Part shown: one piece after another, positions 18,999 to 29,639 of the stretch | How the letters are laid out: each line of letters starts with the position of its first letter | How positions within the stretch are numbered: the first letter of the stretch is position 1 | Origin: Knoellia remsis | GTDB lineage: Bacteria; Actinomycetota; Actinomycetes; Actinomycetales; Dermatophilaceae | NCBI RefSeq assembly: GCF_003002895.1 | Contig: NZ_PVTI01000017.1 | Location: 1-64,000, forward strand | Length of the DNA stretch: 64,000 nt | Reading direction: 5' to 3' | Notes under the pieces: generated by a model | What the model was told of the DNA's origin: nothing | Seen by the model: only the letters and a program-made list of their open reading frames with translations | The model's database searches: none | Translations under genes and position numbers: made by a program

Positions 18999-19754
18999 TC
19001 AGGTGAGCTTGCGGACGACGCCGAGGGGTAGGTGACGCATCGCGGTGCCGAGGGGCTTCCATGGCCAGGCCGGGACGCGGGCCGAGTCGACGCCCTTCTC
19101 GATCGCCTCGACGATGCCGCGAACTCCCTCTTCGGTGCCGACCATGAACCTCGTCTGCTGGGCGACCTTCTCGTTCATCTCCGAGCGGATGTAGCCGGGA
19201 TAGATCGTCGTCACGGTGATGTCGAGGTCGGGCTTGCCGAGCATCTCCGACCGGATCCCCTCGGCGAGCGCCGCGACCCCGGCCTTCGTCGCGGCATACG
19301 TCGTCATCGTCTTGGGCATGCCGCGCATCGCGGACATCGACGAGATGACGACGAGGTGACCGCGCTTCGCCTCACGGAACAGCTCCATCGCGGCCTCGCA
19401 CTGCGCGAGCGCGCCGACGAAGTTCGTCATCGCCGTCTCGCGGTTCGCGTCGTAGCGGCCGGTGCCGATGGGCGCACCCTTGCCCAGGCCGGCGTTGACG
19501 ACGACCCGGTCGAGCCCACCCAGCTCGTCCGCCAGCGAGCGGAACACCCGGAACACCGCGTCATCGTCGGTGACGTCGAGTGCCGCGATCGCGACGCGCC
19601 GATCCGGCTGTGCCGCAAGGATCTCGGCGCGCAGCTCCTCGAGTCGTTCGGTGCGCCGGGCGCACAGCGCGAGGTCGTTGCCGGCGGCGGCGAGCTGGCG
19701 GGCGAGCTCGGCGCCGATGCCGGAGCTGGCCCCGGTGATGAGGGTGGTGGTCAT
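18999..19754 (-). CDS. Short-chain dehydrogenase/reductase (last gene of catabolic operon)
   Basis: This 251-residue SDR has the cofactor motif TGASSGIGAELARQL, the NAG motif (VVNAGLGKG) and the catalytic Tyr and Lys in YAATKAGVAAL, with the catalytic Ser in VISSMSAM. An Arg-rich segment after the second strand (LCARRTERLEEL) suggests NADP(H). It lies 14 bases after the phosphatase gene, with GGAG upstream of ATG 19754, at the end of the five-gene operon that begins with acyl-CoA dehydrogenase. Oxidation of a hydroxy intermediate of that pathway is plausible. Confidence 0.85.
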   Translation of the reverse strand: MTTTLITGASSGIGAELARQLAAAGNDLALCARRTERLEELRAEILAAQPDRRVAIAALDVTDDDAVFRVFRSLADELGGLDRVVVNAGLGKGAPIGTGRYDANRETAMTNFVGALAQCEAAMELFREAKRGHLVVISSMSAMRGMPKTMTTYAATKAGVAALAEGIRSEMLGKPDLDITVTTIYPGYIRSEMNEKVAQQTRFMVGTEEGVRGIVEAIEKGVDSARVPAWPWKPLGTAMRHLPLGVVRKLT

Positions 19755-19768
19755 GTCGGCAGTGCTCC

Positions 19769-20476
19769 TCAGCGGGTCGTGAGCAGGTCGGGGACCCGCT
19801 CGAGATGGGTCGTGTCGTTGAAGGTCCGCAGCACCGGGCGGCGGGCGGCCCCGCCGTCCCCGGCGCCGACGGACACGGTCGTGAGTGAGGCGTTCGCGAG
19901 CACCCGCTGCAGCGCGGTCCACGTCGGCGCGCCACCGTCGAGCAGCGACGCGGCCACCCAGGAGATCGCCCCCGCGGAACTGACGACGACCGCCGTCTCC
20001 CCCGGCCCCAGCTCGTCGGCCACCTCGCCCAGCCCGCCGAGGACCCGCTCACCGAACGCCGCGAACGGCTCCCCGTAGTCGGCGTCGTTCTCACCCGCCA
20101 CCCAGCGCTGCGTCGCCACGGCATACATCTCGTCGAAGGCCGCGCGCGGCCGCAGCGTGCGTGCCATGTCCGCCTTGAGCAGGGTCATCGAGCGGTATGC
20201 CGGTTTGTATGCCGTGAGGATGCTCGCGTGGTCGTACTCGTCCCAGCCGGGTCGGGTCTGCGGCGTCAGGTCCCAGCCGGCGGCCTCGACGAGCCCGGTC
20301 GCGGTGTCGCGCTGGCGCTCCATCGTGCCGGAGACGACGAGCGTCGGCGCGAGGTCGCGTGTAGCGAGCTCGGCACCGACGATGCGCGCCTGTTCGCGCC
20401 CGAGGTCGGAGAGCTTGTCGTAGGCGCGCTTGCCCCAGGACGCCTGGCCGTGCCGGACGAGGACGATCCGGCTCAT
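19769..20476 (-). CDS. Histidine phosphatase family protein
   Basis: This 235-residue phosphatase has the phosphohistidine motif LVRHGQASWG at the N-terminus and the second catalytic His region replaced by VVVSSAGAISW, where many members have a His; loss of that His would alter activity. The start overlaps the kinase stop by four bases (ATGA at 20473). A longer frame up to 20539 exists but is not conserved-looking. Sitting directly after a phosphotransferase in a coupled operon, it might remove phosphate from a pathway intermediate. That is inference. Confidence 0.8.
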   Translation of the reverse strand: MSRIVLVRHGQASWGKRAYDKLSDLGREQARIVGAELATRDLAPTLVVSGTMERQRDTATGLVEAAGWDLTPQTRPGWDEYDHASILTAYKPAYRSMTLLKADMARTLRPRAAFDEMYAVATQRWVAGENDADYGEPFAAFGERVLGGLGEVADELGPGETAVVVSSAGAISWVAASLLDGGAPTWTALQRVLANASLTTVSVGAGDGGAARRPVLRTFNDTTHLERVPDLLTTR

Positions 20477-21582
20477 CTCCCGCCCTTCGCGCGCGATCCA
20501 GCACGCCGCTCCTGCCAGCGGTACCTCGCGATGAGCCACCGGCAGCGCAGGTCGAGGTAGCGGACGAGCCAGCGCATCTGCTTGGCCTTGGGGTTGTGCG
20601 TCTCACCGCGGTAGGAGCGCAGGTAGATCTGCTGCGCGATCACGGCGAGCCGGAAGAGCCCGAAGACCTCGTAGAACGCCCACCGCCGCGCGTCCATCTC
20701 GATGCCCATCGCGGCGCAGTAGTAACGGACCGCCTCGACCCGGCCGAGCATCCCCCGCTCGTGGGTCGGTTGCAGCCGAAGCCGCTTGGCGACGGGGTCG
20801 CTGTCGGCCTCGATCCAGTAGGCCATCGCGCCACCGAGGTCCATGAGCGGGTCTCCCACCGTCGCCATCTCCCAGTCGAGGATGCCGACGACGCGCGTCG
20901 GGTCAGCGGGGTCGAGGACGAGGTTGTCGAAACGGAAGTCGTTGTGGATGAGGACCTGCGCGACGTCGTCGGGCTGGTGCTCGGCGAGCCAGGCCATCGT
21001 CGAATCGAAGGACCCGACGTCAGGCGTGCGCGCCTTGCGCAGCCGCGCCGACCAGCCCGACACCTGCCGCTCGACGTAGCCGGGTCCGCGGCTGAGGTGC
21101 CCGAGCCCAGCCGCCTCGACGTCCACGCTGTGCAGCGCCACGAGCGTGTCAAGAGCGTTGCGGCACAATAGGTTCACGTCCTCCGACGTCATGCCCAGGG
21201 AATCCGGGATGTCCCGCCGCAGGATCGTGCCGTCGATGCGCTCCATGACATAGAACTCCGAGCCGATGACCGACTCGTCCCCGCAGTACGCGACGATTCG
21301 CGGCACCGTGTCGAGCACCCGACCGAGACTCGCCTGGATGTCGCTCTCCCGGCGCATGTCGTGCGCCCCCTTGGCCTTGGTCCCCGAAGGCGGGCGCCGG
21401 AGAATGAGGTCGCGGCCGGCATACCGAAGCAGGTAGGTGAGGTTCGACGCACCCCCGGTGAACTGCCGCACCTCCGGAACCCCGTCGAGACCCGGCTCAC
21501 CAGAAGCGTTGTCCCGCAACCATTGTGCGAGCGCCTCGACGTCGAAGGCGTCCTCGTCGCGGACCGGTGACCCGTCGCTCAC
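20473..21582 (-). CDS. APH-fold phosphotransferase (ACAD10/11 and LvaA-like kinase)
   Basis: This 369-residue aminoglycoside-phosphotransferase-fold kinase has the catalytic loop HNDFRFDNLV and the metal-binding ILDWEMATVGDPLMDLG, plus the N-terminal FTGGASNLTYLL nucleotide segment. This subgroup is found beside or fused to acyl-CoA dehydrogenases: the kinase half of human ACAD10/ACAD11, and LvaA of Pseudomonas levulinate catabolism. There it phosphorylates the 4-hydroxyl of 4-hydroxyacyl-CoA. The gene order here (dehydrogenase, SDR, kinase; four-base overlaps) supports the same chemistry. It is unlikely to be an antibiotic-resistance kinase. Confidence 0.82.
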   Translation of the reverse strand: MSDGSPVRDEDAFDVEALAQWLRDNASGEPGLDGVPEVRQFTGGASNLTYLLRYAGRDLILRRPPSGTKAKGAHDMRRESDIQASLGRVLDTVPRIVAYCGDESVIGSEFYVMERIDGTILRRDIPDSLGMTSEDVNLLCRNALDTLVALHSVDVEAAGLGHLSRGPGYVERQVSGWSARLRKARTPDVGSFDSTMAWLAEHQPDDVAQVLIHNDFRFDNLVLDPADPTRVVGILDWEMATVGDPLMDLGGAMAYWIEADSDPVAKRLRLQPTHERGMLGRVEAVRYYCAAMGIEMDARRWAFYEVFGLFRLAVIAQQIYLRSYRGETHNPKAKQMRWLVRYLDLRCRWLIARYRWQERRAGSRAKGGR

Positions 21583-22367
21583 GTGCGCGCCTTCCGCGCG
21601 AGCCGCTTGCCGGCGTTCGTCGCGACGAGGTTGTATGCCGGCCGCGCGAGTCGCTTGGCCCAGTAGGCCTGGTGGCCGATCCGGTCAGTGAGGATGATCC
21701 GCTTGTGCCGGTCGATGCCCTTGAGGACGATCTCGGCGACCTCGTCGGCGGTCATCGACGCCTTGGTGATGAGCTTGACCGCGGTCTCCTCCATCGCCGT
21801 GTCCTTGCCCTGCAGGGACTGGTGCAGGTTGGTCTTGAAGAAGGCGGGACAGACGGCGGAGACATGGATGTTCCACGGCGCGAGCTCGAAGCCGAGGGTC
21901 TCGGACAGGGCGACTACCCCGGCCTTGGCCGCGTTGTAGGACGACATGCCGGGGCCGTGGATGAGACCCGCGAGCGAGGCGGTGTTGACGATGTGGCCCG
22001 AACGCTGCTCCTTGAGCAGGGGGGTGAACGTCTGGCAGCCGCGCACGACCCCGAGGAGGTTGACGTCGAGGACCCGCTCCCAGTCGGCGATGGACTCGAC
22101 GTCGATGCGTCCGCCCGTCGCTACGCCGGCGTTGTTGACGAGGACGTCGAGGCCGCCCCACGTGTCGCGGACGTGGGCGAGGGCGGCGTCCCAGTCCTGC
22201 TGGCTGCGCACGTCGAGCCGCACGTAGTCGACGCCGGCCGGCACCGAGTCGGGACGCGTGTCGGCGAGGTCGGCGACGAGCACGGAGTCGCCGCGTGCGA
22301 GGAACGCGTTCGCGAGCGCGAGGCCGAGGCCGGACGCTCCGCCGGTGACGAGGACACGACGGCTCAT
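21579..22367 (-). CDS. Short-chain dehydrogenase/reductase (LvaD-like context)
   Basis: This 262-residue SDR has TGGASGLGLALANAF for the cofactor, NNAGVATGG, the catalytic Ser in VNTASLAG and the YNAAKAGVVALSE Tyr/Lys pair. The C-terminus is basic and extended (KRLARKART). ATG 22367 overlaps the acyl-CoA dehydrogenase stop (ATGA), and its own stop overlaps the kinase start, so it is translated in a chain with both. A role in oxidising or reducing a hydroxyacyl/ketoacyl intermediate is inferred. Confidence 0.85.
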   Translation of the reverse strand: MSRRVLVTGGASGLGLALANAFLARGDSVLVADLADTRPDSVPAGVDYVRLDVRSQQDWDAALAHVRDTWGGLDVLVNNAGVATGGRIDVESIADWERVLDVNLLGVVRGCQTFTPLLKEQRSGHIVNTASLAGLIHGPGMSSYNAAKAGVVALSETLGFELAPWNIHVSAVCPAFFKTNLHQSLQGKDTAMEETAVKLITKASMTADEVAEIVLKGIDRHKRIILTDRIGHQAYWAKRLARPAYNLVATNAGKRLARKART

Positions 22368-23632
22368 GAGCGGCTCGCCTTCTCTGCGTAGGGGTGGAGG
22401 AGGATGCGGGCGACGACGCCGAGGTGGACCTCGTCCGGACCGTCGGCGAGGCGCAGCGACCGCGCGCCCGAGTAGGCCGCCGCGAGCGGGAAGTCCTCGG
22501 ACATCCCTGCCCCGCCGTGCAGCTGGATCGCCATGTCGATGACGTCGCACGCCATCTGCGGCACGACCGCCTTGATCTCGCTGACCTCGCTCAGCGCGCC
22601 GAGCGAGCCCTCGGTGTCGAGCTTCCACGCGGCGTGGTGGACGAGGAGGCGCGCCTGGTTGATGGCGATGCGGGCCTTGGCAAGCCGCTCGCGGTTGCCG
22701 CCGAGGTTCGCGATCGGCTTGCCGAAGGCGGTGCGCGTCGTCGACCGTTCGCAGGCGAGCTCGAGGGCCCGCTCGGCGAGGCCGATGAGCCGCATGCAGT
22801 GGTGGACGCGCCCGGGTCCGAGCCGTCCCTGCGCGATCTCGAAGGCGCGACCCGGCCCGGCGATGATGTTCGTGACCGGCAACCGCACGTCGGTGAGCGT
22901 CACCTCGCCGTGCCCGATGGGCTCGTCATAGTGGCCGAGCGCCGAGAGCATCCGCTCGATGCGCACGCCCGGGTGGTCGAGCGGCACGAGCACCATCGAA
23001 TGGCGGGAGTGCCGCGACGCCTCGGGGTCGGTGACGCCCATGAAGATGCCGACCTTGCAGTCCGGGTTCCCCACGCCGGTCGACCACCACTTGCGGCCGT
23101 TGAGCACGACCTCGTCGCCGTCGATCGTCGCGGTGGACTCCATGTTCGTCGCGTCGGAGGAGGCGACGCCCGGCTCGGTCATGAGGAACGCGCTGCGAAT
23201 CCGCCCGTCCAGCAACGGTTCCAGCCATTCGGCCTGCTGCTCCGGGGTGCCGTACTTGAGCAGGACCTCCATGTTGCCGGTGTCCGGTGCGTTGCAATTG
23301 AAGATCAACGGCGCGAGCGACGAGCGACCCATCTCCTCGGCGACCGGGGCGTAGTCGGCGTTCGACAGACCGGTGCCGCCATCGGTGCCGAAACGAGCGG
23401 CGTACGGACCCTCGTGCCCCGCGGGGAGGAAGAGGTTCCACAGCCCCTGCGCGCGCGCCTTGCCCTGCAGCTCGGCGACGAGTGGGTGCGCCGGCCACGG
23501 GTCCTCACCTCGGGCACGACGCTCGGCGACGTCGGTCGCGATGACCTGCTCGGCGGGTTCGATCTCGGTGTCGATGAACGCGCGGACGCGGGCGGCAAGG
23601 TCGCGGGATCGCTCGGACGGTGCGAAGTCCAT
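22364..23632 (-). CDS. Acyl-CoA dehydrogenase (ACAD10/11- and LvaC-like)
   Basis: This 422-residue flavoprotein has the usual three-domain ACAD order: N-terminal helices, the middle beta domain (FLMTEPGVASSDATN, which binds FAD) and the C-terminal helical domain with LHGGAGMSEDFPLA. The length, slightly over the usual ~385, and the neighbouring kinase match the ACAD11/LvaC subgroup. In that subgroup the enzyme eliminates phosphate from 4-phosphoacyl-CoA to shift a 4-hydroxyacid into beta-oxidation. It is the first gene of a five-gene coupled operon. Its ATG at 23632 is predicted to be leaderless, with TAGGTT six bases upstream and a palindrome next to it. Confidence 0.88.
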   Translation of the reverse strand: MDFAPSERSRDLAARVRAFIDTEIEPAEQVIATDVAERRARGEDPWPAHPLVAELQGKARAQGLWNLFLPAGHEGPYAARFGTDGGTGLSNADYAPVAEEMGRSSLAPLIFNCNAPDTGNMEVLLKYGTPEQQAEWLEPLLDGRIRSAFLMTEPGVASSDATNMESTATIDGDEVVLNGRKWWSTGVGNPDCKVGIFMGVTDPEASRHSRHSMVLVPLDHPGVRIERMLSALGHYDEPIGHGEVTLTDVRLPVTNIIAGPGRAFEIAQGRLGPGRVHHCMRLIGLAERALELACERSTTRTAFGKPIANLGGNRERLAKARIAINQARLLVHHAAWKLDTEGSLGALSEVSEIKAVVPQMACDVIDMAIQLHGGAGMSEDFPLAAAYSGARSLRLADGPDEVHLGVVARILLHPYAEKASRS

Positions 23633-23638
23633 ACCGAC

Positions 23639-23661
23639 AACCTATGGTAAGCGCCCGCTTA
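23639..23661 (-). promoter_or_regulatory. Leaderless -10 box and palindromic operator of the catabolic operon
   Basis: On the minus strand, TAGGTT (23639-23644) ends six bases before ATG 23632. Just upstream, at 23648-23661, is a perfect 14-base palindrome, TAAGCG-N2-CGCTTA, inside the expected -35/-10 spacer. The shape suits a TetR-type repressor. No regulator gene is adjacent. Confidence 0.6.
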
Positions 23662-23725: not shown

Positions 23726-24562
23726 TCAGCCGCGGGGGTCCAGACCTGCACGGCGGCGGTATGCCGGTCGCTCGCCGGTCGTGGCCGCGCGCCGGGCCTC
23801 GGCGGTGTTGGCATTGACGAGCAGCCGCGCCTGCTCGAACCGCTCGCGCGCGAACGTCCGCCGCGCCCCGGCCACCCACGTCCGGTCGAAGAGCCGCTTC
23901 GCCGCCGCGACCGAGTCCGGCGACCGCTCGGTGATGCGCTCCGCGAGAGCCAGCGCACCGGCATACGGGTCGGCGTTCTCCTCGGTCGCGAGACCGAGCC
24001 GCACCGCCTCAGCGCCCGAGATCGTCTCGCCGGTCATCGTGAGCCGCTTCGCGACGTCGATGCCGACGAGCTGCGAGAGCGCTTGGATGCCGGACATGTC
24101 GGGGACGAGCCCCCACTTCGCCTCGAGGACGCTCCAGCGCGCGTCCGGCGTCGTGATGCGGATGTCGGCCGCGAGCGCGATCTGCAGGCCGCCGCCGAGG
24201 CAGTGGCCGTGGACGGCGGCGATGACCGGCACCGGCACGCGACGCCATGACCAGCACGCCTCTTGGAAGGTGTTCGTGCCCCGCCATGGCCGCGGCAGGA
24301 AGGCGGCGGCGACCCGATTCGGTTGTCGCAGAACGGTTCCGAAGTCGAGACCGGCGCAGAACGCGTCACCCTCACCGGACAGGATGACCGCGCGCAGTGA
24401 CCTGTCGCCACGGAGCCGGTGTGCGGTCGCGACGAGCTGGTCGAGGGTGTCGAGGGTGAGGGCGTTGAGCTTGTCCGGCCGGTTGAGCGCGACGTGTGCG
24501 ATGCCCGACTCGATGCGGCTCGTGACGAGGGGGCCTGGCGTGGCTGCGGCGACATCCGTCAT
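23726..24562 (-). CDS. Enoyl-CoA hydratase/isomerase (crotonase) family protein
   Basis: This 278-residue crotonase-fold protein has LNRPDKLNALT, the oxyanion segment SGEGDAFCAGLDF and VHGHCLGGGLQIALAADIRI. The first catalytic Glu position (GxGLE in true hydratases) reads EAKWGLVPDMSG here, so the precise reaction is uncertain. It is predicted to be leaderless, with TAGAGT seven bases before ATG 24562. It lies upstream of the acyl-CoA dehydrogenase operon on the same strand but under its own promoter, and would serve the next beta-oxidation step. Confidence 0.82.
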   Translation of the reverse strand: MTDVAAATPGPLVTSRIESGIAHVALNRPDKLNALTLDTLDQLVATAHRLRGDRSLRAVILSGEGDAFCAGLDFGTVLRQPNRVAAAFLPRPWRGTNTFQEACWSWRRVPVPVIAAVHGHCLGGGLQIALAADIRITTPDARWSVLEAKWGLVPDMSGIQALSQLVGIDVAKRLTMTGETISGAEAVRLGLATEENADPYAGALALAERITERSPDSVAAAKRLFDRTWVAGARRTFARERFEQARLLVNANTAEARRAATTGERPAYRRRAGLDPRG

Positions 24563-24586
24563 GCCGCCGACTCTAGGCCGCGACGG

Positions 24587-25783
24587 TCAGTGCCCGACCG
24601 GGGCTGTGACGCGCGCCCGCTGGTCCGAACGGTGCTTGATGAGGCTGAGGCCGAGGACACCGGCGCCGAGAACCGAAAGACCGGCCCCGACCCAGCTCGG
24701 CGCGGTGTAGCCGTACCCGCCCGCGATGACGACACCGCCGAGCCAGGCGCCGAGGGCGTTGGCGAGGTTGAGCGCGGCGTGGTTGCTCGCGGCGCCCAGC
24801 GTCTGCGCGCGTCCGGCGACCTGCATGAGCCGCAGCTGGAGGTTGACGACGAGCACGCCCGCAAGGACGGAGGAGAGGAAGTAGAAGAAGACCGCCGTCG
24901 GCCACCACTGCGCGGTGAGCGCGAACGCCACGAGCGTCGCACCCATGCCGACACAGCCGATGGTGATGGAGCGCAGCACCGACCACTCGCCGAGGCGGCC
25001 GGCGAGCGGCGTGCCGACGAGCCCGCCGATGCCGGAGGCCAGCAGGAAGAGCGGGACGGCGCTCGCCTCGAGCCCGGTCACGTCGGTGACCGTCGGAGCG
25101 ATGTAGCTCGCCATCGCGAACATGCCGCCGAAGCCGATCGCGCCGACGAGCAGGGTCAGCGCGACCTGCGTCGTCGCGAAGTCCCCCAGCTCGCGCCGGA
25201 TCGTCGACTCGATGTCGCGGTCGATGTGCGGCACGAAGGCGACGAGCAGCCCGACGGTGAGCACTCCGAGGACGGCGACGAGCCAGTAGGCCGCCTGCCA
25301 CCCGAGGTGCTGCCCGAGCCAAGTGGCACCGGGCACGCCCGCAACGTTGGCGATGGGGATGCCGAGCATGACCCGGCTCACCGCGCGCCCGTGCTGGCCG
25401 CGGGCCGCGAGGTCCACGGCCACGAGGGCGGCGACACCGAAGAAGGCACCGTGCGGCATACCGGCAAAGAACCGCGAGAGGAGCAGCCAGCCGTAGTCCG
25501 GCGCGAGCGCGGTCGCGACATTGCCGACGACGAAGGCGACCATGAGCCCGATGAGCAGCTCGCGGCGCGGCCAGGTCGCACCGAGCACGGCGATGAGCGG
25601 CGCGCCGACGACGACGCCCGCGGCATACGCGGAGATGGCGTGGCCGGCGTCCGGGATGGACACCGAGATGCCCGAGGCGATGTCGGGCAGCAGCCCCATC
25701 GTGACGAACTCCGTCGTGCCGATGGCGAATCCGCCGAGGACGAGGGCGACGGTCGCGAGGAGGGCATGGCGGGGCTGGGGCAC
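24587..25783 (-). CDS. MFS transporter, DHA1 (AraJ/chloramphenicol-efflux type)
   Basis: This 398-residue membrane protein has about twelve hydrophobic helices and begins GGFAIGTTEFVTMGLLPDIA, the signature of the arabinose-efflux/DHA1 subgroup (AraJ, NepI, CmlR). Motif A is degenerate (GATWPRRELLIGLM). It probably exports a drug, nucleoside or sugar using the proton gradient; the substrate is unknown. The start is GTG 25783 with TATCCT a few bases upstream. Confidence 0.82.
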   Translation of the reverse strand: MPQPRHALLATVALVLGGFAIGTTEFVTMGLLPDIASGISVSIPDAGHAISAYAAGVVVGAPLIAVLGATWPRRELLIGLMVAFVVGNVATALAPDYGWLLLSRFFAGMPHGAFFGVAALVAVDLAARGQHGRAVSRVMLGIPIANVAGVPGATWLGQHLGWQAAYWLVAVLGVLTVGLLVAFVPHIDRDIESTIRRELGDFATTQVALTLLVGAIGFGGMFAMASYIAPTVTDVTGLEASAVPLFLLASGIGGLVGTPLAGRLGEWSVLRSITIGCVGMGATLVAFALTAQWWPTAVFFYFLSSVLAGVLVVNLQLRLMQVAGRAQTLGAASNHAALNLANALGAWLGGVVIAGGYGYTAPSWVGAGLSVLGAGVLGLSLIKHRSDQRARVTAPVGH

Positions 25784-25870
25784 GTCTCAGGATAAGGAGC
25801 GAGGACGGCCTGGCATTCCCGGCGCCGACCGGTGGGCCCACGACATCGCGCGGCGCCGCTCCACCACTCC

Positions 25871-25876
25871 TACGAT
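25871..25876 (+). promoter_or_regulatory. -10 box for a leaderless transcript
   Basis: TACGAT ends seven bases before ATG 25884. No Shine-Dalgarno sequence lies between them. Confidence 0.5.
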
Positions 25877-25883
25877 CGACGGT

Positions 25884-26858
25884 ATGCGCGCTGCACTCGT
25901 CACCCGGCTCGACGGTCCCGACGCCGTGGAGGTCACCGACGTCCCCGACCCGGAGGTGCCGGAGGGGCAGGCGCTCATCGAGGTCGCGGCCGCGGGGGTG
26001 GCGTTCCCGGACGTGCTGCTCACCCGCGGCGAGTACCAGATCACGCCGCCGCTTCCGTTCGTCCCGGGCGCCGAGGTGTCGGGTTTCGTGCGGGTCGCGC
26101 CGGCGGGGTCGGGCCTCGTCGAGGGGCAGCGGGTGGCGGCGTTCCCGTTCCTCGGCGGGTTCGCGGAGCGGGTGGTGTGCGACCCGGGGCTGGTCTGCCC
26201 GCTGCCGGACGGCGTGACCTTCGACGCGGGGGCGGCGCTGCCGATGAACTACCTCACCTGCCACTTCGCGCTGCGGCTGCGCGGCCGGCTCGCCGAGGGC
26301 GAGAAGGTCCTCGTCCACGGCGCCGCCGGTGGGATCGGCACCGCTGCGATCCAGCTCGCCAAGGCGTGGGGTGCGAGCGTGTATGCCGTGACGTCCGATC
26401 CCGCGAAGGGTGACGTCGCGCGCACGGCCGGGGCCGACGAGGTCGTGCCGGCGGACGGGTTCCGGGAGGCCGTCGCCGACCTCACGTCGGGTCACGGGGT
26501 GGACGTCGTCGTCGACCCGGTCGGTGGGGACCGGTTCACCGACTCGCTGCGCTCGCTCGCGCCGCTCGGGCGGCTGCTCGTCATCGGGTTCACGGCCGGC
26601 TCGATCCCCGAGGTGCGGGTGAACCGGCTGCTGCTGAACAACCTCGACGTCGTCGGCGTCGGGTGGGGCGCCTACTGGGCCGGGGCGCGGTCGCGGCCGG
26701 AGTTCGTGCGCTCGCAGTGGGATGACCTCGTGCCCCTGCTCGAGTCCGGCGCGATCGACCCGGTCATCGGGGAGGTGCGCTCGCTCGACGAGGTGGGCGT
26801 GGCGCTGCGCGACATCGACGAACGCCGCGCCACCGGCAAGGTCCTCCTCACCCCCTGA
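25884..26858 (+). CDS. NADPH:quinone oxidoreductase family protein
   Basis: This 324-residue zinc-free MDR protein (QOR type) has GVAFPDVLLTRGEYQ, PFVPGAEVSG and the NADPH motif VHGAAGGIGTAAIQLAKAWGA, and lacks the zinc ligands of alcohol dehydrogenases. Members reduce quinones or alpha,beta-unsaturated carbonyls. The leaderless start at 25884 is chosen; the frame runs upstream into the MFS promoter region. The gene ends at a cluster of family A repeats and converges on the YhgE/Pip gene. Confidence 0.87.
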   Translation: MRAALVTRLDGPDAVEVTDVPDPEVPEGQALIEVAAAGVAFPDVLLTRGEYQITPPLPFVPGAEVSGFVRVAPAGSGLVEGQRVAAFPFLGGFAERVVCDPGLVCPLPDGVTFDAGAALPMNYLTCHFALRLRGRLAEGEKVLVHGAAGGIGTAAIQLAKAWGASVYAVTSDPAKGDVARTAGADEVVPADGFREAVADLTSGHGVDVVVDPVGGDRFTDSLRSLAPLGRLLVIGFTAGSIPEVRVNRLLLNNLDVVGVGWGAYWAGARSRPEFVRSQWDDLVPLLESGAIDPVIGEVRSLDEVGVALRDIDERRATGKVLLTP

Positions 26859-26864
26859 CCGCGC

Positions 26865-26969
26865 GACTGATTGCCCGTTCTGGTCGTTCCCCCCTCCACT
26901 GATTGCCCGTTCCGGTACCTCCCCGCTCCACTGATTGCCCGTTCTGGCTGCCGGAACGGGCAATAAGTC
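26865..26969. repeat. Family A repeat cluster (three direct units plus one inverted)
   Basis: ACTGATTGCCCGTTC occurs at about 26866, 26898 and 26930, spaced 32 bases apart. The third copy can pair with CCGGAACGGGCAATAAGTC at 26951-26969 to form a hairpin. The cluster fills the gap between convergent genes and includes the stop codon of the YhgE/Pip gene. A terminator function is plausible. Confidence 0.75.
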
Positions 26970-28967
26970 AGAAGAGGGTGGGCTGGTCGGCAACCTTCGG
27001 AATGGGTATGCCGCTCGCGCGCGTCCGCACGTGCAGCCGCCGCGCCGCCGCGGTCGAGAGCAGCAGCGCCCCAGCACCCCACGCGACCAGCACGGCCACG
27101 TCGAGTCCGAGCTTCATCGTCGGCCCGCCGTAGGCGAGGGCACGAAGGCCCTCCACGGCATACGACATCGGCAGCACGTGGTGCAGCCACTGCAGCGGCC
27201 CGGGCAGCGTCTCCCACGGGAAGGTCCCGCCCGCGCTCACGAGCTGGAGCACCATGAGGACGAGCGCGATGAACTGTCCGGTGTCCCCGAGCCGCGCCAT
27301 GAGCCCGTGGATGATCGCCATGAAGCTCATCGACACGAGCACCATGAACGCGAGCATCCACCACGGGTGCGCGAGGTCGATGCCGACGGCGAACCGGACG
27401 ATGATCCACGTCAGCACCGCCTGAGCGACACCGATGACGGCCGGCGCGAGCCAGCCACCGACCGCGACGGGGACGACCGCCCAACGTGACGTCAGCGCTT
27501 CCTCGACGAGCGGGCGCGCCCGGGTGAAGAGGGTGAACCCTCCGATCCACAGCGCGAGCGACAGGAAGAACGGAGCCAGCCCCGCGCCATACGACCCTGC
27601 CCGGGCCAGCGCCTCGGAGACGACACCCACGGGCGACCCGACGGTCTGTGCCACGGCCTTGCGCTGGGCGTCGGTGGGGTTGGGGATCTGCTTCGCACCG
27701 TCGGCGAGCGACGAGGAGAGTTTCGCCGCTCCCGAGTCGAGCTTGGCGAGGCCGTCGTCGAGGGCCTTGGCGCCCGAGGCCAGCTGGTTGGCGCCCGTGA
27801 GGGCCTGCTGCTGCCCGGCGTTCAGCTCCTTGGCGCCGGAGGCGAGCCGCGCCCCAGCCGAGGCCGCGGCGTCGATCCCGGACTCGAGCTCCTTGGACGC
27901 GGCGGCGAGCTGGGCGGCGCCGTCGGCCACCTGGTTCGCGCCGGTCGACAGCCGGGTGAGGTCGGCGGAGGTCGACTGCAGGGTGGCGTTGGCGTCGCGG
28001 ATGGGGGTGCGCAGCTTGGCCGTCTCGGCGAGGACGGCGTCGACCTGCTCGTCGGTGAGCCCGGCCGCGCGCAGCCGCTCCGGCAGGGCCGCGTCGAACG
28101 CGTCGAGGTCCTTGGTGAGGTCACTGCCGGCGGTCGCGACCTTCTGGCCCACGTCCGCGATGCGCTTGTTGCCGTCCGCGACCTGACGGGCGCCGTCGGC
28201 GAGCTTGGCGGTCTGGCCGGGCAGGGCGTCGGTGCGCTTGTCGAGGGTCGTGAGGCCAGAGCTCAGCTCGGTCGCTCCGGAGGACAGCTCAGCCGCCCCG
28301 ACCGCGAGCTTCTTCTGACCCGCGGCGAGGTCGGCGGCGCCGCTGCTCAGCTTCGTCGAGCCCGAGTGCGCGTCCTTGGCGCCGGTCGCGAGCTGGGACG
28401 CCCCCTTGGCGGCCTCGCCCACCTGGTCGTGGATCGTCGAGAACCGCCGAGCATCTCGCTCGCAGCCGTTTGACTCACCTGCTGCGCCACCGACACCTGC
28501 ACCTGCTCGACGACCCGGTCGGCAATGGTCCCCGCGAGATAGTTCGTCGCATCGTTGGTGTCGAGCTCGAGGTTCGCGAGCCGCGGCGTGAAGTCCGCAC
28601 TCGAGGCGAGGTCGGCGCTGAAACTCTGCGGGATCGTGAGGACGAACGCGTAGTCCCCCTCGCGCAGCCCGCGCTGCGCCTCGGCCGCGTCGACCTCGCG
28701 CCAGTCGAGGTCACGCGCCTTGAGCAGGGTGTCGGCGACCTCGTCCCCGACCTGGAGCTTCTCGCCGTCCGCGAGCGTCGTCCCGCGGTCCTCGACGACG
28801 ACGGCCGCCGGCAGCCCGTCGAGGTTCGCGTAGGGGTCCTTGTTCGCATAGAGATACAGCCCGGCATACAGCGACGGGACGACGATCATCGCGGCGAGGG
28901 CGACCTTGGCGAGGGTCGTCTCGGTGAGCCGGCGGAGCTCGGTGAGGGCGACGCGGAGGGCGGTCAT
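26968..28967 (-). pseudogene. YhgE/Pip membrane protein, interrupted by a frameshift
   Basis: Two overlapping frames together make one YhgE/Pip-family protein. The N-terminal part from ATG 28967 has TM helix LAKVALAAMIVVPSLYAGLYL and the extracellular YhgE domain. The C-terminal part has alternating Ala/Gly/Lys heptads (LATGAKDAHSGSTKLSSGA) and about five C-terminal TM helices (ABC-2-like). The join is near 28440: the sequence GGCGGTTCTCGACGAT reads correctly (GGFSTIHDQVGEAA) if one T is added. The full product would be about 666 residues, normal for the family. Phage-infection-protein/YhgE members are membrane proteins linked to ESX/WXG100 export or lipid transport. Either the gene is broken or a base was miscalled. 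Confidence 0.8.
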
Positions 28968-29020
28968 GGCGGGACCCCTGTGGTCGGGAGACGGCTGTCG
29001 ATGGTGCTTCCATGATGGGC

Positions 29021-29057
29021 GGTACTGTGGCGTACCACCGCGGTACGCTACGGTACC
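29021..29057. promoter_or_regulatory. TetR operator, clustered GGTAC palindromes
   Basis: Alternating GGTAC/GTACC half-sites occur at 29021, 29031, 29042 and 29052. GCGTACC-N5-GGTACGC (29030-29048) is a perfect palindrome. The block sits four bases before the TetR ATG and about 55 bases from the divergent YhgE/Pip start, so one repressor could control both. Confidence 0.65.
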
Positions 29058-29060
29058 ACC

Positions 29061-29639
29061 ATGGCCACCACACCTGCGAACCGTTTGCTCGACGCCCTCG
29101 CCGAGGCGTTCGTCGAGCAGGGCCTCGCACACACGACGGTCGCCGACATCGCCCGCATCGCGGGCACGAGCAAGCGCACCTTCTACGAGCACTTCGCCTC
29201 CAAGGAAGACGCCTTCCTCGCCCTGTATGCCGGCCGCGCCGATGCGCTCGTCGCCGCCATCTCCGCTGTCGTCACCGACCCGACCGCACCCATCGAGGAG
29301 CAGGTGCGCGGCGCCGTCCGCGCCTACCTCGACCACCTCGCCGACAACCCGGCACTCGTGCGCGCGCACATGCTCGAAGCCCACTCCCTCGGCCGCACCG
29401 GGCTCGACGCGAGACGGTCCCTCATCGACCGCCACGCGGCCTACCTGCGCGGTCTTGTCGACGAGGCGAGCCGGCACCACGACGACGTGCGGCGACTTTC
29501 GACGCCCGAGTCGGTCGCCGTCGTCGCCGGGCTCATCGAGCTCACCCTGCGCGCCGTCCTCGACGGCCGGACCCTCAACTCGCGCAGCCAGGTCGACCAC
29601 GCGTCGAGCTTCATCCTCGACATCGTCCGCGCCGGCTGA
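29061..29639 (+). CDS. TetR/AcrR family regulator
   Basis: This 192-residue regulator has an N-terminal helix-turn-helix, TTVADIARIAGTSKRTFYEHFASKEDAFLALY, and a helical ligand domain typical of the family. It is divergent from the YhgE/Pip gene, with the operator cluster between them, so it most likely represses itself and that membrane protein. The ligand is unknown. Confidence 0.88.
   Translation: MATTPANRLLDALAEAFVEQGLAHTTVADIARIAGTSKRTFYEHFASKEDAFLALYAGRADALVAAISAVVTDPTAPIEEQVRGAVRAYLDHLADNPALVRAHMLEAHSLGRTGLDARRSLIDRHAAYLRGLVDEASRHHDDVRRLSTPESVAVVAGLIELTLRAVLDGRTLNSRSQVDHASSFILDIVRAG

Follow-up and report, generated by a model that had tools for sequence, protein, structure and literature searches.

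A probable bacterial counterpart of the ACAD10/11 pathway for 4-hydroxy fatty acids in Knoellia remsis, with a histidine-phosphatase-fold partner that carries serine for its second catalytic histidine

The stretch analysed here, called the window, comprises positions 1 to 64,000 of contig NZ_PVTI01000017.1 from Knoellia remsis (assembly GCF_003002895.1, 3.57 Mb). At 23632-18999 it carries five intact minus-strand genes encoding, in order, an acyl-CoA dehydrogenase (ACAD), a short-chain dehydrogenase (SDR1), an APH-fold kinase, a histidine-phosphatase-fold protein (HP) and a second short-chain dehydrogenase (SDR2) (Table 1). Pfam matches along the operon are to the N, M and C domains of ACAD, adh_short, APH, His_Phos_1 and adh_short. 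A first-pass annotation, made from the letters of this DNA, had described ACAD, SDR and kinase genes joined by four-base overlaps and followed by a phosphatase-family gene and another SDR. That layout is present as described, with ATGA at the ACAD/SDR1 junction and GTGA at SDR1/kinase, and the kinase/HP junction has a further four-base overlap (ATGA) that had not been claimed. Because these three overlaps are followed by a gap of 14 bases between HP and SDR2, all five genes probably share a single transcript.

Table 1. Coordinates of the five operon genes and of two upstream features in the window.
Feature	Position	Strand	Evidence
ACAD	22364..23632	-	PDB 4hr3 581 bits, ACAD11 8v3u 421 bits; 50% identity to ACAD11; R270, H278, R281, D397 kept
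SDR1, short-chain dehydrogenase	21579..22367	-	adh_short 1.8e-50; PRK05650 282 bits, just below cut-off 297
APH-fold kinase, 369 aa, GTG start	20473..21582	-	PF01636 2.1e-52; PDB 9o56, ACAD11 8v3v; tree
HP, 235 aa, ATG start at 20476, Ser167 replacing second catalytic His	19769..20476	-	PF00300 (His_Phos_1) 8.4e-20
SDR2, second short-chain dehydrogenase	18999..19754	-	PRK08251 379 bits, above cut-off 253
Enoyl-CoA hydratase family gene, 93 bases upstream of ACAD	23726..24562	-	PRK07509 354 bits, cut-off 249
Perfect inverted repeat TAAGCG-NN-CGCTTA, candidate operator	23648..23661	.	centre about 22 bases before ACAD start

Judged by its sequence, the ACAD is of the ACAD11 type and closer to ACAD11 than to other ACADs. 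Its leading PDB matches are 4hr3, a putative ACAD, and ACAD11, and the remaining PDB ACADs score at most 144 bits; ACAD11 is the best-characterised PDB relative of both the ACAD and the kinase. In PMC12440821, R626, H634 and R637 of an active-site helix of ACAD11 and its catalytic D753 are tied to the handling of 4-phosphoacyl-CoA, and their equivalents here are R270, H278, R281 and D397. After short matches had been removed, this R/H/R/D set was found in 82/82 ACADs scoring above 350 bits and in 13/13 intermediate ones, six of which are LvaC-like proteins from LvaB-linked clusters. It is absent (0/17) from other ACADs encoded at these loci, all 17 of which lack both the helix motif and the Asp. 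The window ACAD is 35% identical to the annotated LvaC of the lva operon on a Pseudomonas aeruginosa plasmid (locus L214). ACAD11 and that LvaC are 34% identical in our comparison, against a stated 56% for ACAD11 (62% for ACAD10) in PMC11342911, which may give similarity or use a different LvaC.

Searches of PDB with the kinase returned 9o56 (236 bits) and ACAD11 (169 bits), with macrolide and capreomycin phosphotransferases and an APH-like protein at 24-36 bits. Identity is 33% to the human ACAD11 kinase and 25% to the lva kinase of L214. The HNDxRxDN and DWE motifs are intact (HNDFRFDN and LDWEMAT), and motifs of the HxD[F/Y/W]xxDN and DWE types occur in all 94 loci with a kinase match above 300 bits. 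Kinase phylogeny had been proposed as a check by the first-pass annotation. In a tree of 97 rows, for which one in three of the HP-bearing rows of loci L123-L202 was retained and drug-type phosphotransferases were kept outside and compared by bit score, six LvaB-linked kinases are separated with support of 100/100 from the other 91 rows, the window and human ACAD11 among them. In this split the kinase thus falls with ACAD11 and not with the LvaB-linked kinases. ACAD11 itself stands beside 22 other actinobacterial kinases (91/95), and the named rows nearest to the window kinase are mostly Intrasporangiaceae (Phycicoccus, Janibacter). Where the kinase-dehydrogenase pair had been likened to both ACAD10/11 and LvaA/LvaC, the first comparison holds, with ACAD11 as best-characterised PDB match and the R/H/R/D set in place, whereas LvaA and LvaC are only remote relatives.

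The first-pass annotation also suspected that the second active-site His of HP is replaced, and comparison with its family bears this out. Residue 167, counted from the ATG at 20476, is Ser where the second catalytic His is expected. It is Ser in every row of a 94-row family alignment (fragments dropped; at least one pair of rows comes from the same genome), and as a control His occupies the second-His motif in 9/9 other His_Phos_1 proteins found in the genome, six by alignment and three read directly. We take residue 167 to be the superfamily's second-catalytic-His position, as it also is in the alignment. In an AlphaFold2 model with a confident fold (mean pLDDT 96) it lies between strand 161-166 and helix 168-178. 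Its nearest structural neighbours are PGAM5, PhoE and RosC (Z about 22; for PGAM5 Z 22.9 over 176 residues, 2.2 A, 23% identity). Residues R8, H9, R54, E80, S167, G169, N195 and N220 are invariant in 94/94 rows, so the nucleophile His9, both Arg (R8, R54) and the acid Glu80 never vary. HP has the fold of branch 1 of the histidine phosphatase superfamily with the RHG motif, the second Arg and the acid Glu, and is without the second catalytic His. An invariant C-terminal His standing in for the missing one was considered; H224, near the conserved Asn220, is His in 90/94 rows, and the idea fails as a strict rule. Since the second catalytic His is Ser, phosphatase activity of HP should not be assumed. 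Since the substitution is fixed while the rest of the site is invariant, the pattern argues for changed chemistry in an altered enzyme, or for a phosphate-binding (sensor) role, and not for decay. No published test of a Ser-type HP partner was found in the literature searched, in a search that was not exhaustive.

This Ser-type partner is the most interesting part of the operon and is conserved far beyond this genome. A scan of genome contigs with a kinase-alignment profile returned at least 588 relatives, the best 80 loci of which were analysed, so that the following counts describe the closest relatives. Around the kinase, ACAD lies on the same strand in 60/80 loci and HP in 50/80, the HP match starting no more than 20 bases from the kinase end in 41 of those 50. 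The order ACAD-SDR1-kinase-HP-SDR2 was found 10 times, ACAD-kinase-HP-SDR2 16 times and ACAD-SDR1-kinase-HP 12 times, with SDR2 at the same place in the relatives' clusters. The exact five-gene order occurs in Kribbella, Nocardioides, another Nocardioidaceae bacterium, Zhongshania, Paraglaciecola and Pyxidicoccus, in two other genomes from the window's class (L084, L112), and on plasmids carried by a rhodobacterium and a Pseudoalteromonas. HP is found near the kinase in Actinomycetota, Pseudomonadota, Myxococcota and Deinococcota; on Deinococcus plasmids ACAD, kinase and HP share one neighbourhood together with other genes, and in Burkholderia multivorans and Sulfitobacter the order is reversed, with HP before the kinase. 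No kinase-HP gene fusion was seen among the 80 loci. Because the cluster order recurs in distant phyla, the five-gene arrangement is not due to chance. As a control, 20 kinase loci from the window's order were compared: HP adjoins the kinase in the one close relative among them (L034), and it lies within 2 kb in 1/19 remote loci (L041, 1.5 kb). The link between HP and kinase is therefore strongest in the window's own kinase branch.

Two side observations concern relatives of these genes. PDB 9o56, solved as an 'aminoglycoside phosphotransferase', shares 38% identity with the window kinase. It groups with two kinases of Deinococcus near which a Ser-type HP is encoded, and its drug-resistance name may conceal a 4-hydroxyacyl-CoA kinase. 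On two Sulfitobacter plasmids (L226, L227) a Ser-type HP lies directly before a kinase, in the company of two ACADs and two SDRs, a thiolase or nitronate monooxygenase, and an ABC transporter of the branched-chain amino acid type. These genes probably form a catabolic cluster linked to transport, and its substrate could help to name the pathway.

In our view the operon quite probably encodes the ACAD10/11 pathway for 4-hydroxy fatty acids in a bacterial form. The reaction scheme is drawn from enzymology in PMC11342911 and PMC12440821, the former reporting that bacterial orthologues from Burkholderia replace each ACAD10 domain. Because 13 AMP-binding (CoA ligase) proteins are encoded elsewhere in the genome and none in the contig (E 1e-20), CoA activation would have to come from elsewhere. 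The 4-hydroxyacyl-CoA would be supplied by such a ligase, or from 4-oxoacyl-CoA by SDR1 or SDR2, SDR1 being the proposed 4-oxoacyl-CoA reductase/4-hydroxyacyl-CoA dehydrogenase. By homology, the kinase would use ATP to phosphorylate the 4-hydroxyl, giving 4-phosphoacyl-CoA. The ACAD, whose relevant residues are present, would then remove the phosphate to yield 2-enoyl-CoA with no net oxidation, as ACAD10/11 do, with Asp397 as presumed base and Arg270/His278/Arg281 at the phosphate. An enoyl-CoA hydratase and ordinary beta-oxidation would complete the breakdown. HP would be a dedicated partner of the kinase step, most likely binding and slowly hydrolysing the phosphorylated intermediate or stray products and so preventing a build-up of phospho-compounds; a Ser fixed where the second His belongs would imply that its turnover is altered. 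Our confidence lies chiefly in the pathway assignment, and the role of HP is a guess with about an even chance of being right.

Several points weigh against this proposal. The substrates and activities of all operon proteins are predicted, and no CoA ligase was matched in the contig at the threshold above. In the tree, the ACAD11 kinase sits on a long branch outside the window's 64-row branch, and 21 of the 22 actinobacterial kinases grouped with it belong to loci in which HP is not closely adjacent or is more loosely linked. No HP was found nearby in 30/80 kinase loci (contig ends truncate some of these), among them those of Phycicoccus and Janibacter, the closest named relatives; HP is thus dispensable for the pathway. 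With the second His lost, phosphatase turnover would be expected to suffer. HP also occurs apart from the kinase. A single-sequence search over the phylum proved insensitive (2/149 genomes) and was replaced by a four-row profile, with which the HP family was found in at least 30/197 genomes of the class. In 18 of these 30 the fetched stretch shows no kinase near HP, and in two further ones HP is near a remote kinase only. All 20 of these unlinked genomes encode an ACAD11-type kinase somewhere (E 1e-20), which is weak evidence since such kinases are common (31/119 genomes of the order).

The alternative that survives best concerns HP. It could be a phosphatase of little or no activity, binding the phospho-intermediate and slowing the kinase, by analogy with the HAD domain of ACAD10, which according to PMC11342911 has lost one Asp of its DxD motif, has negligible phosphatase activity and restrains the kinase. 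Such a brake is possible though doubtful: HP too has lost exactly one known catalytic residue, with Ser in 94/94 rows, and its gene overlaps that of the kinase, but a pure regulator would not need His9 and Glu80, which are unvaried in the same rows, the HP and HAD folds are unrelated, and a contact between HP and kinase is hypothetical. A bolder and rather speculative extension is that HAD in animal ACAD10 and HP in bacteria were separately recruited beside a 4-hydroxyacyl-CoA kinase, each losing one catalytic residue and both becoming sensors of the intermediate that throttle the kinase. If true, bacteria and mammals would have converged on the same kind of safety device within one pathway, and the catalytically complete histidine phosphatase of certain lva-type operons (L216, L218) would be a third recruitment event.

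The presence of two different SDRs flanking kinase and HP in the 10 loci of exact five-gene order suggests another, unlikely, addition to the scheme, namely that the pair inverts the C4 stereocentre by oxidation and reduction so that both enantiomers reach an R-selective kinase. The ACAD10 kinase gives about fourfold more product from the R form (PMC11342911). Many loci, however, have one SDR alone, and SDR substrates are not readable from sequence.

The first-pass annotation had likened the operon to 4-hydroxyacid (levulinate) catabolism. The 4-hydroxyacyl-CoA kinase and dehydrogenase types are supported. Because the pair is of the ACAD10/11 type and only remotely of the LvaA/LvaC type, levulinate is not specifically indicated, and longer 4-hydroxy acids, as for ACAD10/11, appear at least as likely. 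A levulinate or 4-hydroxyvalerate operon in the strict lva sense is improbable. The reaction types would be the same, SDR1 and SDR2 are 31-37% identical to LvaD (SDR1 31-32%), and the R/H/R/D set is common to the window ACAD and LvaC. Against it stand the low identity to the lva pair of L214 (25% for the kinase, 35% for the ACAD), the 100/100 branch that divides the window kinase from the LvaB-linked ones, and the missing features of an lva operon, namely LvaB beside the kinase, a kinase of LvaA type, and CoA ligase and transporter genes in the operon. No lva-type transporter or symporter, PrpR/LvaR-type regulator or CoA ligase was found among the 18 operon and neighbouring open reading frames (ORFs) scanned. 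The earlier statement that neither a CoA ligase nor an LvaB-like gene is present was correct for the AMP-binding family in the contig and, at E 0.01, for LvaB (DUF6285) in the genome.

A further statement, that the histidine phosphatase lies outside the described pathway, has to be corrected, as Ser-type HPs recur beside kinases in four phyla and PMC6692424 describes a histidine phosphatase gene beside an lvaA homologue, with lvaB missing, in the lva cluster of Pseudomonas citronellolis LA18T. That phosphatase, it is suggested there, may strip phosphate from 4-phosphovaleryl-CoA (PMC6692424). The lva-type operons L216 and L218 have a histidine phosphatase of a different subfamily, with the normal His, beside the kinase and an LvaB-like gene. 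At L216:4946-12354, on a Stutzerimonas plasmid, the canonical enzyme (SHD motif) lies between the lvaB-like DUF6285 gene and the ACAD and is a second, separate phosphatase recruitment; at L218:6363-9703, on a plasmid of Azospirillum sp. B510, the phosphatase gene of the DUF6285-kinase cluster is interrupted by an IS21-type insertion element. The idea that LvaB and HP are mutually exclusive kinase partners was dropped, both DUF6285 and a histidine phosphatase being present in Azoarcus pAZKH (L122) and in Stutzerimonas (L216). Finally, a chance neighbourhood of an ordinary beta-oxidation ACAD, generic SDRs and a drug-type APH, with which the family names alone (ACAD, SDR, APH, His_Phos_1) are compatible, can be dismissed as extremely improbable, given 24-36 bits for drug phosphotransferases and an APH-like protein versus 236 (9o56) and 169 (ACAD11), the phospho-specific residues of the ACAD, and the same gene order in distant phyla.

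Upstream of the operon, the enoyl-CoA hydratase gene is a plausible next pathway step. It is not a conserved member of the cluster, a strong hydratase match upstream of ACAD being present only at L123 among the 80 loci, 2.8 kb away. Beyond it, long open frames on both strands without a Pfam match at 1e-5 occupy 24573-27077, between the hydratase gene and ORFs matching ABC-2 membrane proteins (26968-29600). The palindrome between hydratase gene and ACAD is a single copy in the genome assembly, and a reversed-pattern control gave 0. Actinobacterial relatives carry a repeat, TTGAGCAnTGCTCAA, centred about 29 bases before the start and close to the place of the window palindrome. Relaxed at one end base, TTGAGCnnnGCTCAA has 16 matches in 1.96 Mb of fetched loci, spread over 12 actinobacterial loci; 13/16 are exactly TTGAGCAnTGCTCAA, and 16/16 lie 26-114 bases upstream of the cluster's first gene. 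The looser TGAGCnnnGCTCA has 21 matches, 18 of them upstream of the cluster's first gene. In L034, L084 and L123 a divergent gene with a TetR-like N-terminal sequence, as judged from translation, starts inside the repeat, which lies at L034:5837, L084:4768 and L123:3879; in the window, the hydratase gene occupies the position of that divergent gene. As an operator in the window's genome TTGAGCAnTGCTCAA was rejected, with no copy at two or fewer mismatches, and for a close TetR homologue the genome gave weak matches alone (best 1.8e-9 at 30%).

The 4-hydroxy acid branch of beta-oxidation has been tied to mammalian enzymes only recently (PMC11342911, PMC12440821). This operon family offers a simple and widespread bacterial model of the pathway in which the genes are separate. 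It raises the question of why a phosphatase-like partner, in which Ser is fixed at one catalytic position, recurs beside the kinase, and this question is testable with a few purified proteins.

Among known systems, branch 1 of the histidine phosphatase superfamily (PGAM5, PhoE/YhfR, RosC and phosphoserine phosphatases) shares with HP the fold, RHG motif, second Arg and acid Glu, and HP differs in its invariant Ser, conserved Asn220 and His224 (90/94). The Pseudomonas lva operon (LvaABCDE; L214, where lvaB is annotated) is alike in combining kinase, ACAD and SDR and in the catalytic Asp and phosphate-site residues of the ACAD. It differs in its LvaB, CoA ligase, symporter and PrpR-like regulator, none of which was found here within the searches above, and in a kinase from a different branch. 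The P. citronellolis LA18T cluster resembles the operon in its histidine phosphatase gene next to the kinase and its missing LvaB; its kinase belongs to the LvaA branch, being 59% identical to LvaA according to PMC6692424, and the window kinase to the other. The likeness is greatest to human ACAD11 and ACAD10, with an ACAD 50% identical and bearing the same R/H/R/D site, a kinase 33% identical, and presumably the same two reactions (PMC12440821, PMC11342911). What is a single polypeptide in ACAD11 is encoded here by separate, overlapping genes, to which two SDRs and HP are added, and the place of HP is taken in ACAD10 by an unrelated, degenerate HAD domain.

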